Part shown: positions 59,311-64,000 of the stretch, in pieces
How positions within the stretch are numbered: position 1 is the stretch's first letter
Layout of the letters: every line of letters begins with the position of its first letter
From: Aliivibrio sifiae
GTDB lineage: Bacteria > Pseudomonadota > Gammaproteobacteria > Enterobacterales > Vibrionaceae
Reading direction: 5' to 3'
NCBI RefSeq assembly: GCF_002954715.1
Contig: NZ_MSCP01000001.1
Coordinates: 676,012-740,011, forward strand
Length of the DNA: 64,000 bases
Program-made: the position numbers and the translations under genes
Notes under the pieces: generated by a model
Told to the model about the DNA's origin: nothing
Seen by the model: only the letters and a program-made list of their open reading frames with translations
The model's database searches: none

Positions 59311-60117
59311 TTATTTAAATGTAGACCAGATTGGTGCGTGATCAGAAGGTTTTTCAATGCCACGTAGTTCGTAGTCAATTCCCGCCTCAGTACACTTAAC
59401 TGCGAGTGTTGGCGTAGCCATTACAACATCAATACGAAGGCCACGATTATCAACAAAGCCTTTTGAGCGATAATCAAACCAAGAGAATTGGTCGGTTACT
59501 TCTGGATGAAGGTTACGGAAGGTATCTTCAAATCCCCAATCTTTTAATGTTTGTAGCCATTCACGCTCTTCTGGCTGGAATGAGCATTTACCCGTTCTTA
59601 ACCAACGTTTCGCATTTGGTTCACCAATACCAATATCTAAATCAATAGGGCTGATATTAATGTCACCCATGATAATGAGTTCTTCATCACTGTTATGATG
59701 AGAGTTTAGATGAGTCATTAGATCTTTATAGAACTGACGTTTGTATGGGAATTTAGTTTCATGCTTAATGCTATCACCCTGTGGGAAATACCCATTCATA
59801 ACGGTGAACTGTGAACCATCTTCACGCTGATGTGTCGTCATGATCATGCGTTTTTGATGTTCTTCGGTATCCGTATCAAAACCATATTGAACAGAAATAG
59901 GCTCTTCTTTACATAGCATAGCAACACCGTAATGTGCTTTTTGTCCATGGAAGTAGACTTTATAGCCCATTGCTTCGACAGCTTCGACAGGGAACATTTC
60001 GTTATGTACTTTGATCTCTTGAAGACCGATAACGTCTGGGTTGTGCTTATCAATGATAGCTTGAAGTTGATGAAGGCGAGCACGAAGGCCATTTATGTTG
60101 AAGCTGATTACTTTCAT
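59311..60117 (-). CDS. xthA: exonuclease III (AP endonuclease)
   Basis: This 268-residue enzyme repairs abasic sites and degrades 3' ends. It has [12 protein letters not shown] (metal-binding Glu), [22 protein letters not shown] and the terminal catalytic [11 protein letters not shown]. The length equals E. coli XthA (268). The integrase gene lies 88 bases upstream of its start on the same strand. Confidence 0.96.
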
Positions 60118-60205
60118 TGTTTTCTAGATTCCTTGTTTTATATAGGGTTTCGTTATTTTTCAATGTGTTAGTTATGTGAGTAAAACTAAATAAGGGTAAT
60201 GAAAA

Positions 60206-61279
60206 CTAATGGTTGTTAACCGCTGCCGCCACTTTGTCGCCATATTTTATGTCGTACTTGGTGGCATTTAATGGGTTTAACGAAACCGCATCATTTAGGT
60301 GATCAGGTGCAAAATGTGAATAAGCCATTGTTTGCTTAATATCCTGATGACCGAGGATTTTCTGTAATACCAAGATATTACCACCATTCATCATAAAATG
60401 GCTCGCAAAAGTATGTCTCAAAACGTGAGTCGATTGTCCTTTGGGTAAATCTGGTAATGCCAAGGTTAGCCATTTATGAACAACACCATAGCCACAGGTA
60501 AAAACTCGGCCAGAAGTCGGTTGATAAAGCTCATCATATAATTCTTTAGAAATGGGAATAGTGCGGTTTCGTTTCCCCTTAGTATTAATGTACGTGATCT
60601 TATACTCAGATAATTGAGAGCCTTGAAGACTTACCGCTTCCATAATTCGCGCACCAGTGGATAAGCAAATTTTGATAATAGAAGAGAGCTGATCACCAAT
60701 AGGGCTTTTTGATACAAACAAAAGCAAATCATCAATCTGAGCTTTAGATAAAAAAGTGAGTTCACTTTCACCTGTTTTAATCTTCTTTATTCCCAGCATT
60801 GGGTTTGGGTAATCCCATTCTTTAATTTCAATTAAATGGTTAAACACACCTTGAAGAGAGAGCTGGTCAAAGTTATGTGAGGCTGGTGAAAGTTCACCGC
60901 CGCTTCGTCCTGTTCCTCGGCCTCGTGTTTTTCTATTTGCGCGATAATGAACAAAATCAGTCGGTGTTAAACGTAAAGCGATTGGGTCGTTCAGTTCTTC
61001 ACATACCATCATTAACCGGCGATAAGTAGTCACGCCTGAGCGTAAATGCTTACCATGTAAATTAAACCAAAGCGTTAGCAACTCAGAAAGAGGGCGTTTG
61101 TCTTCTTTTGCACCAAGCCATGGTTTGTCATCAATAGTTTTCATCGTGAAGGTTTCAAATGCGGTTGCTTCTCCTTTTGTTGCAAAGCGTTTACGGATCC
61201 GTTTACCTTCTCGGCCCGTTGGATAGCATTCACAAATCCAAGGTTTCTTACTTCCATCTTTTAAATTACGTACTGACAC
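60206..61279 (-). CDS. phage-type tyrosine recombinase (integrase)
   Basis: This 357-residue integrase has an arm-binding-like N-terminus (MSVRNLKDGSKKPWICECYP), a core-binding domain (~60-165) and the catalytic domain with LSTGARIMEA (Arg), HVLRHTFASHF (HxxR), LGHQDIKQTMAYSHF (His and nucleophile Tyr). The set resembles P2/HP1-like integrases. It starts at GTG with a weak ribosome binding site and has a LexA-type box 18 bases upstream. It marks the edge of an integrated element with the AT-rich genes beyond it. No att repeat could be found inside the window. Confidence 0.9.
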   Translation of the reverse strand: MSVRNLKDGSKKPWICECYPTGREGKRIRKRFATKGEATAFETFTMKTIDDKPWLGAKEDKRPLSELLTLWFNLHGKHLRSGVTTYRRLMMVCEELNDPIALRLTPTDFVHYRANRKTRGRGTGRSGGELSPASHNFDQLSLQGVFNHLIEIKEWDYPNPMLGIKKIKTGESELTFLSKAQIDDLLLFVSKSPIGDQLSSIIKICLSTGARIMEAVSLQGSQLSEYKITYINTKGKRNRTIPISKELYDELYQPTSGRVFTCGYGVVHKWLTLALPDLPKGQSTHVLRHTFASHFMMNGGNILVLQKILGHQDIKQTMAYSHFAPDHLNDAVSLNPLNATKYDIKYGDKVAAAVNNH

Positions 61280-61530: not shown

Positions 61531-62514
61531 TTGTTGTATATAGATATATTAGATGCTGGTCATGGTGATTGCCTATTAGTTAGTTGTGGTGATTTAAAAA
61601 TTCTAATTGATTCTGGACCTCAAAAATTTGTTATACGTAATCGAGTAGCGAATAAATTGAAAGAATTGTTAAATGGAAGCTCTGTAGATGTTGCTTTTGT
61701 AACGCATAATGATGATGATCATATTGGTGGTTATAAAGAATTTATAAAGAAAGGTATTATTATAAATTGTTTTGTATTCAATAGTTTAGAGTTATTAGGG
61801 AAAGTAATTAGCGTAAAAACAAAGAAAATTTCATTTAAGCAGGATATAAACTTAAAAAAAAACTTAGATGATGAAGGTATAAAAGTAATCACGCTAACGA
61901 AAGAAGATAAACATTTACACATTGGTAATGTCAAAATTACTCCTTTAACACCGAGTATAGATACTTTATCTTTATTAGATAATAAATTTAATAAAGATAA
62001 AATAAAGAAAATATCAGCATTAAAAAATAGTGAAGATTCATTATCTGAATGTTTTAATATAATTAATTTAAAGTGTGATAAATTTAAAAAAGATTTATCA
62101 ATAACAAATAAATCTAGTATTTCATTTATCATAGAATATGAAAATACTAAAGCGTTATTTCTTGGTGATTCACATGAAAAAGATATTGTTGATTCATTAT
62201 TAGATATAAATGAAAACGATAGAGTATTTAATGTAGTTAAACTCTCTCATCATGGAAGTAAAAAAAATACGAGTTTAAAATTATTAAAAATAATAGGTAT
62301 TACGGATTATATTATTTGTGCAGATAAATCAAAAAATAATCATCCAAATAACATTACTTTAGCTAGGATTCTAAAATTTAATAATAATCCTACGATACAC
62401 ATGAGTAGTAATGATGTAAGAGTTCGAGAACTTTTTGAACAATGCCATGATTTGAACTTTAAAGTTAATGTAACATACTCAGATAATGGAGTTAATACAG
62501 TTTTCTATGAGTAG
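61531..62514 (+). CDS. ComEC-like metallo-beta-lactamase-fold protein (Avs1a-like)
   Basis: This 327-residue protein of the ComEC/Rec2-type MBL class has no membrane helices. DAGHGDCLLVS and LIDSGP lead to the metal motif THNDDDHIGG (His59, Asp61, Asp63, His64). Later come LFLGDS, VKLSHHGSKKNTS (His240-241) and NNHPNN (His271). Metal-dependent nuclease or hydrolase activity is expected. It starts at TTG after a weak AGGT; no better start keeps the first strand. Codon use is much more AT-rich than in the core genes. With the downstream protease it matches the first gene of AVAST type I defence systems. Confidence 0.75.
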   Translation: MLYIDILDAGHGDCLLVSCGDLKILIDSGPQKFVIRNRVANKLKELLNGSSVDVAFVTHNDDDHIGGYKEFIKKGIIINCFVFNSLELLGKVISVKTKKISFKQDINLKKNLDDEGIKVITLTKEDKHLHIGNVKITPLTPSIDTLSLLDNKFNKDKIKKISALKNSEDSLSECFNIINLKCDKFKKDLSITNKSSISFIIEYENTKALFLGDSHEKDIVDSLLDINENDRVFNVVKLSHHGSKKNTSLKLLKIIGITDYIICADKSKNNHPNNITLARILKFNNNPTIHMSSNDVRVRELFEQCHDLNFKVNVTYSDNGVNTVFYE

Positions 62515-63967
62515 AGAAAATGCAATTAAAGTGAGCGTTTGTGATGCTGAATCAAGTGGTTATCATTTTAAATCAAGCTCAGATAATACATCGTTTGTTA
62601 TTACTTCAAAGCACGGACTTTGTCATAAAACAGATGTGTGTGAACAATATCAAAATAACGATACAGATAGCTGTAAAGAATGTAATGTTGAATTAAATAT
62701 TGAAGAAATAGAATTTACTACTTATGAAAATAATAAATTAACACCAATTAAAGTATACAGTTTTAAGAATAAAGATATGGTGATTACCAGTGTTGAAGAG
62801 GTTGCTAGAAATACAATAAAGATTGGTAAGGTAGCTGATGGTGATTATACTATTTATGGATATAAGAAAAATAATACTGCAGTATCAAGAGTTATTTTAG
62901 ATAAAGCAGTAATCGAATGTGGTGTTTGTTTTTTTAATATATATTCAAATAGTATTTCGGAATTAGTAGAAAAAAGCGATTCATACTATGGTATTTCTGG
63001 ATCTCTGGTTGTTAAAAATAGTATCGCTGGTGAGTGTACTGCAGTTTCCGTAATAACAAATAATGAATCGGATAATGATTTATCTGGAGAACTTTTGTTT
63101 GATATTGATTTTTCTATATTAAATGATTATTTTTCTTGTTCAGTTTTTAGAATCCCTCTTATGACTTCAAATATTGATGAAGAATTTAAATCTAAATTTA
63201 ATTTGCTATCTTCTGTTAATATAAATCATAAGGTGAAATTAAATGGATTAATACCTCGGAATAAAGGGATTCCTAGATTTAATTTAAGTTCTATTGTAGA
63301 TTCATTATTTTCAAATTTTGATGTTGTTTTAGGTAAGAGTGTAGTACATAGAAATTTATTTTTGATGTCTGCTATAAATATTATAAAAAATAAAAGATCA
63401 TTAGATCCTGTAAGTAAATTATTATCTAGTAAAGTAGTAGAATCATTTCTGCATGCACCACATATTTATTCCACGTGTATTGAGGATTCTAATTATCATC
63501 ATATGCATTATTCAGTATCAAAAACAGGTGAGATCGAATTTTTAGTTTCAAACTTTACAGGGTATGGAGATATTAGTGAAACTATTAATCAAACCTTAGG
63601 GCAGATAATAAATGATATAAATACTTATTCTCTTAACTCTAGTTTGATCACTGAACGAGCATTTTTAGATAAAAAATATTCCGAAGATGAATGTGAAGAT
63701 ATTTATAATATACTCTTTGGAAATGTAGATAAAGAGATTAAATCTATATCTATAGTACATACTATATCTTTAGATAGATTAAATATAACTAAAGATTGTA
63801 ATATGAATGAATGTATTAATAATATTATTAATCTAGCTGCTGATAATATACCAAAAAATTATTTAGATTTTTTGGATTATGGCATTACAGTTAATGTCTT
63901 CGTAATTCCAGTAAATAAAGACAATGAGTTATATGACTTGATGGAGAAGTTGATTAATGAATGTTAA
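62507..63967 (+). CDS. trypsin-like serine protease (Avs1b-like)
   Basis: This 486-residue protein has an N-terminal trypsin-like domain (~1-200) with FVITSKHGLC (His36), KNKDMVIT (Asp90) and YYGISGSLVV (Ser164) in triad order. Four cysteines (39, 45, 56, 59) between His and Asp suggest a metal-binding or disulfide insertion. Residues ~200-486 have no recognised domain. The ATG at 62507 overlaps the MBL stop by eight bases; an ATG at 62486 is the alternative (493 residues). In AVAST type I systems a protease of this kind sits between the MBL and the STAND NTPase genes. There is no signal peptide, so it is cytoplasmic. Confidence 0.7.
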   Translation: MSRENAIKVSVCDAESSGYHFKSSSDNTSFVITSKHGLCHKTDVCEQYQNNDTDSCKECNVELNIEEIEFTTYENNKLTPIKVYSFKNKDMVITSVEEVARNTIKIGKVADGDYTIYGYKKNNTAVSRVILDKAVIECGVCFFNIYSNSISELVEKSDSYYGISGSLVVKNSIAGECTAVSVITNNESDNDLSGELLFDIDFSILNDYFSCSVFRIPLMTSNIDEEFKSKFNLLSSVNINHKVKLNGLIPRNKGIPRFNLSSIVDSLFSNFDVVLGKSVVHRNLFLMSAINIIKNKRSLDPVSKLLSSKVVESFLHAPHIYSTCIEDSNYHHMHYSVSKTGEIEFLVSNFTGYGDISETINQTLGQIINDINTYSLNSSLITERAFLDKKYSEDECEDIYNILFGNVDKEIKSISIVHTISLDRLNITKDCNMNECINNIINLAADNIPKNYLDFLDYGITVNVFVIPVNKDNELYDLMEKLINEC

Positions 63968-64000
63968 TGCAATTGACTATATCTGCACTAAAATAGTTAA
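63957..64000 (+). CDS. 5' end of a third overlapping gene (cut by window edge)
   Basis: An ATG at 63957, overlapping the protease stop by 11 bases, opens a frame without stops to the window end (MNVNAIDYICTKIV...). Overlap and direction suggest the third gene of the operon. In an AVAST type I locus this would encode the STAND NTPase sensor, which cannot be seen here. Confidence 0.45.
   Translation, partial: MNVNAIDYICTKIV

Follow-up and report, generated by a model that had tools for sequence, protein, structure and literature searches.

A probable HamMAB (nuclease-protease Hachiman) operon carried between the integrase and cI genes of a P2-like prophage in Aliivibrio sifiae

Three overlapping genes in a P2-like prophage

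At the right-hand end of a 64,000-nucleotide stretch of the Aliivibrio sifiae genome (the window; contig positions 676012-740011), three overlapping rightward genes are arranged in the order hamM, protease-dHamA and hamB and span 61531 to window-equivalent 66482; the operon runs beyond the window edge, and the remainder was read in the host genome. The first gene, hamM (61531-62514, +), starts with TTG and encodes a 327-residue, ComEC-like MBL-fold protein, a predicted pro-nuclease recognized from the ORF listing, domain and profile matches, and an AlphaFold model. The second occupies 62486-63967 (+), or 62507-63967 from a conserved ATG that has a further ATG 21 bases upstream of it; from the conserved start it encodes 486 residues, with a trypsin-like protease followed by a putative degenerate HamA (DUF1837) domain. 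The third, hamB, begins at 63957 (+), inside the end of the protease gene, and runs past 64000 to window-equivalent 66482 (contig 742493), encoding an 841-residue DEAH helicase.

The original prediction, made from the window alone, had described much of this correctly. The THNDDDH motif lies at residues 58-64 of HamM; the protease triad His36, Asp90 and Ser164 is right when counted from the ATG at 62507 (His43, Asp97 and Ser171 from the ATG at 62486); the third open reading frame at the window edge and the neighboring integrase are real; and the operon is indeed very AT-rich, with a GC content of 24-28% against mostly 35-44% in the remaining prophage and host flank. In such AT-rich DNA, scans for promoters and terminators carry no information: 33 promoter-like sites were returned, relative to 42.7 expected in shuffles.

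Upstream of hamM lies a P2-like prophage tyrosine integrase (60206-61279, -; Pfam Int_N and Phage_integrase, PHROG integrase), and beyond it an 18-bp att repeat, AAGCTGATTACTTTCATT (60101-60118, no strand assigned), that overlaps the start of xthA. A second copy sits 35,687 bases downstream, at contig 771799-771816. Because the two repeats flank the operon, it lies inside a prophage of about 35.7 kb, between int and cI. Downstream of hamB are a leftward CI-type repressor, a CII-like activator, and a replication protein whose matches in the phage collection are all from Vibrio phages, followed by P2-like portal, terminase, capsid, tape-measure, sheath, and baseplate genes. The prophage is of the P2-like (K139-related) Vibrionaceae type, and hamMAB is its cargo between the integrase and cI. 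Its attachment site corresponds to the first codons of xthA (exodeoxyribonuclease III, 59311-60117), the coding sequence of which stays intact on the left side. Separately, an AT-rich open reading frame (about 30% GC; L002:12887-13516, -) for a predicted membrane protein, located between the prophage replication and packaging genes, is a possible second cargo.

The interval between int and cI differs in nearly every one of 20 integrase relatives (L059-L078). Many of the cargo genes match defense profiles. Cargo in the scanned examples includes PD-Lambda-5, Septu PtuA, an LmuB-like gene, a type II methyltransferase, an NsnA/NsnB pair, PDC-S73, and a DUF4297-like Hachiman; several large cargo proteins have no PADLOC match at all. 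The available excerpts of Rousset et al. (2022, PMC9122126, Fig. 7A) already present the int-cI interval of Vibrionaceae P2-like prophages as a defense hotspot, at the same position and in the same prophage type as here, and those excerpts contain no mention of HamMAB for it.

A nuclease-protease pair followed by a HamB helicase

HamM retains an MBL metal motif (H59-x-D61-x-D63-H64, plus D213, H240/H241, and H271), and its AlphaFold model is good (mean pLDDT 79.6), with the ComEC nuclease domain 9ic4 as the top PDB match in a fold search (E = 1.6e-15). Among PADLOC profiles the best is LmuA (1.6e-64), then RT-associated MBL, then Avs1a (8.3e-34). The first of these could be read as a Lamassu-like (ABC-3C) system, in which MBL and protease are paired with an SMC-like ATPase sensor; the last is in line with the original prediction of an AVAST type I (Avs1) system or near variant, in which an Avs1a MBL and an Avs1b protease accompany a phage-protein-binding STAND NTPase. 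The NCBIfam Avs1a model, one of the checks proposed for that reading, also matches HamM (1.8e-42), at 145.5 bits, far under its cut-off of 420.

The second gene was examined with separate HMMs for the N- and C-terminal halves of the clade's fusion proteins. For the protease half, the triad is invariant in a six-member family alignment, its columns align with the proteases of LmuA, Avs1b, and Plesiomonas HamA, and the next five matches outside the clade are all LmuA proteases (E of 2e-4 to 0.09), found in ABC-3C operons. For the C-terminal half, ranked against 870 open reading frames, only HamA proteins follow the clade members, each weakly (E of 0.1-8). The sole sequence-library signal of note for the window protein is PADLOC HamA (E = 3.4e-4, residues 340-488), although HamA1 picks up one of the six relatives scanned (4.9e-14). 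When six family members were compared with Plesiomonas HamA by HHalign, the C-terminal register was recovered at low probability. A sequence search of the fusion against the PDB gave no meaningful match; in a PDB fold search with its AlphaFold model, the protease half of which is poor (pLDDT mostly below 40), Hachiman HamA 8zue_A (E = 1.1e-5) alone reaches significance. Alignment and model together point to a degenerate HamA (DUF1837) domain that has lost its catalytic residues and has diverged so far that the window protein taken alone gives a weak profile match. In an alignment with shared register, the D...GEXK motif is lost in all seven fusions and kept in six of six canonical Vibrionaceae HamAs; two DUF4297-like HamA fusions likewise lack it. 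This agrees with PMC12799240, which reports the D-GEXK motif gone from HamMAB and takes fused HamAs to lose catalysis. Canonical Hachiman is ruled against at this locus, as an intact D-GEXK HamA nuclease is not present.

The third gene decides between these readings. PADLOC HamB1 covers residues 5-837 at E = 5.5e-189, and the canonical SF2 motifs GPTSLGKS, DEAH, and LAGRAGR are intact. The best PDB sequence match is 9wh1_B (E = 2.9e-92; labeled by its depositors 'DNA polymerase theta (Helicase domain only)'), and chains labeled HamB and 'Anti-bacteriophage protein B' match as well. Domain and PADLOC profile scans of the full 841 residues revealed no STAND domain. Where the original prediction expected a STAND reading frame of about 1,500-2,000 residues past 64000, there is instead an 841-residue HamB-type helicase, and both outcomes that it had named as counting against AVAST are in effect what was found: a third gene without STAND, and agreement with another MBL-protease system already characterized, HamMAB. 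AVAST shares the nuclease-protease module and its MBL profiles, but HamM scores better for LmuA, and the second gene is short (486 residues) with a HamA remnant, relative to an Avs1b of about 1,900 residues on a Vibrio parahaemolyticus plasmid. The third gene rules AVAST type I out, and we regard that identity as scarcely credible; what survives of the earlier reading is a presumed anti-phage locus, by analogy, built on the pairing of an MBL nuclease with a trypsin-like protease that is likewise found in AVAST type I. Lamassu fares no better: it is favored by both the best MBL profile and the nearest outside kin of the protease, yet the operon has neither a middle component nor an SMC-like ATPase (LmuB), and its sensor gene is a DEAH helicase. 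Gene content rules it out, and we attach next to no weight to it as an identity, while common ancestry of the nuclease-protease pair with Lamassu is likely.

The sequence features of HamMAB that were checked are all present: an MBL gene immediately upstream, a protease with full triad N-terminal to HamA, loss of D-GEXK, and an intact HamB downstream. A further feature, two disordered HamM loops that each carry a conserved isoleucine, is also present, a Photobacterium relative (Ala/Ser) being the exception. In the HamM model, pLDDT falls below 50 only at residues 89-98 and 154-165, and the tetrapeptide KKIS occurs at 98-101 and 159-162, each in or adjoining one of these disordered segments; two KKIS arise in 10 of 20,000 shuffles of the protein. 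We predict from alignment and model that Ile100 (codon 61828-61830, +; loop 1, KKI/SFKQD, adjoining segment 89-98) and Ile161 (codon 62011-62013, +; loop 2, KKI/SALKN, within segment 154-165) are protease cut sites in two gating loops, the slash marking the predicted cut. These loops are shorter than those of Lamassu or AVAST nucleases, which, like the weak HamA profile match, the poorly modeled protease half, and the low HHalign probability, weighs against the HamMAB reading.

I-S is found at both aligned loop positions in six of seven clade members. The exception, the Photobacterium HamM (L008:471-1502), has SKAS and KKSS, with both isoleucines replaced, and this paired change suggests co-evolution with an altered protease specificity. 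Cut sites have been mapped at I118 and I218 in PflHamM and at I134 in EpiAvs1a (Tuck et al., Science 2025, PMC12799240). In a V. parahaemolyticus Avs1a the residue aligned with Ile100 is Ile133, likely the counterpart of I134, and in Plesiomonas HamM it is Ile116; the equation of Ile100 with I118 and I134 runs through the alignment of these other relatives and near-equal numbering rather than through the PflHamM and EpiAvs1a sequences themselves.

Distribution and divergence of the lineage

Of 329 Vibrionaceae genomes, four carry the protease-HamA gene, a count that includes the genome of the window. Two further Vibrio genomes and one from Photobacterium have all three genes in the same order, as do a V. 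parahaemolyticus plasmid, an Escherichia coli chromosome, and a viral contig, so the arrangement is not due to chance. The plasmid copy adjoins genes for an integrase, an HTH protein, and VapE; the E. coli copy adjoins an integrase and has broken protease-HamA and HamB frames, perhaps due to sequencing error; and the viral-contig copy adjoins P4-like and P2-like integrases. This last locus was the only one recovered when the family alignment served as query against viral contigs, and the window fusion protein gave no match there. Class- and phylum-level genome surveys recovered the window's own copy alone.

Four cysteines directly past the catalytic histidine (C46, C52, C63, and C66 in upstream-ATG numbering; 62621-62683, +) are invariant in the six-member alignment and present in a further locus, L011. 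In an alignment with the proteases of Plesiomonas HamA, LmuA, Avs1b, and Runella, the insertion is absent from all of these; it is a possible zinc site. In the HamM tree, clade members group with full support, apart from Plesiomonas HamM; the two form one group in 16% of bootstrap trees, and the HamM tree does not decide whether they share a single origin. It is possible, though we would not favor it, that the clade is a distinct HamMAB lineage acquired separately from a Lamassu-type nuclease-protease pair, in which the four-cysteine and possibly zinc-binding module would add a layer of activation control, such as metal or redox.

Proposed mechanism and relation to known systems

We consider it very probable that this operon is an anti-phage system of the HamMAB (nuclease-protease Hachiman) type, borne by a P2-like prophage as cargo and acting by a mechanism transferred from its tested Pseudomonas fluorescens relative. 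By analogy with that system, we infer DNA sensing, oligomerisation, cleavage, nuclease activity, and defense: a helicase that senses DNA probably activates a protease, which in turn unlocks a DNA-destroying enzyme. HamB would sense abnormal DNA from the replication of an invading phage and hydrolyze ATP, upon which the catalytically dead HamA domain would oligomerise and the fused trypsin-like protease become active. The protease would then cut HamM after Ile100 and Ile161, in the two disordered loops predicted to cover the metal site, and the opened MBL nuclease would degrade DNA and arrest or kill the infected cell. The outcome would be protection of the prophage and of the kin host population.

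Alternatively, the locus may derive from HamMAB with a dead HamA that does not dock HamB, leaving HamB as a lone helicase effector and the MBL and protease as a separate toxin-like unit. HamA similarity is faint in the clade, and the HamA-HamB interaction is here only predicted, both of which would allow for such a split; against it, the overlapping three-gene order is kept in all relatives read, the C-terminal half has a HamA fold match (8zue_A), and published HamMAB makes a HamAB complex (PMC12799240). We therefore judge uncoupling to be improbable and retain the joint HamMAB reading.

Overall, the identification of a new HamMAB is well supported, and the hotspot that holds it is already known. 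What is new is small and amounts to modest leads: a divergent lineage hardly detected by HamA profiles, the four-cysteine insertion, and the paired isoleucine change in Photobacterium. With this lineage, the range of HamMAB widens to phage-borne carriage: its members lie in or next to a P2-like prophage, a plasmid element with integrase, HTH, and VapE genes, and an integrase-bounded E. coli island, and the carriage of relatives on such elements fits transfer by phages and satellites. Its predicted minimal, short-loop gated nuclease, with two near-identical KKIS sites, would be useful for tests of protease specificity. Automatic callers based on HamA or Avs1a profiles could miss or mislabel the lineage.

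Tuck et al. (Science 2025, PMC12799240) described HamMAB as the combination of an MBL pro-nuclease, a protease fused to a dead HamA, and HamB, which makes up about 5% of Hachiman systems. PflHamMAB of P. fluorescens (PMC12799240) shares with the window locus the gene order of MBL nuclease, protease-HamA, and HamB, the loss of D-GEXK, and two disordered loops that each carry a conserved isoleucine. The window locus differs in a shorter HamM (327 residues) with much shorter loops, a HamA nearly invisible to current profiles, and carriage by a prophage; the four-cysteine insertion is an extra feature of its clade in a comparison that covers other relatives and not the P. fluorescens sequence itself. 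A HamMAB on a Plesiomonas shigelloides plasmid (NZ_CP027853.1) likewise combines MBL, protease-HamA, and helicase, but its HamA sequence is well conserved (PDLC00169, 1.4e-239), it lacks the four-cysteine insertion, and its HamM belongs to a separate lineage. The helicase gene of that plasmid locus (L086:5368-9283) appears to be interrupted by ISVsa5.

Relative to canonical Hachiman HamAB (Tuck et al. 2024, PMC12278908), a HamB-family sensor helicase is common to both; canonical HamA is itself the effector nuclease, whereas the window HamA has lost the catalytic motif. A further nuclease-protease system, with a sensor outside the PADLOC models, possibly resides on Runella plasmid pRUNSL03 (L085:5968-11125), where an MBL gene adjoins one for a 1,363-residue protein annotated as a serine protease; the first 300 or so residues of the latter match LmuA, and the remainder has no PADLOC match. 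AVAST type I has a homologous MBL pro-nuclease and trypsin-like protease, and appears to share the first cleavage-site isoleucine, but in place of HamA and HamB it has a STAND NTPase as sensor, and its protease protein is very large. Finally, Lamassu/ABC-3C systems with an MBL (LmuA) are the closest outside kin by MBL profile as well as by protease domain, and differ in having an SMC-like ATPase and a middle component where the window operon encodes HamA and HamB.
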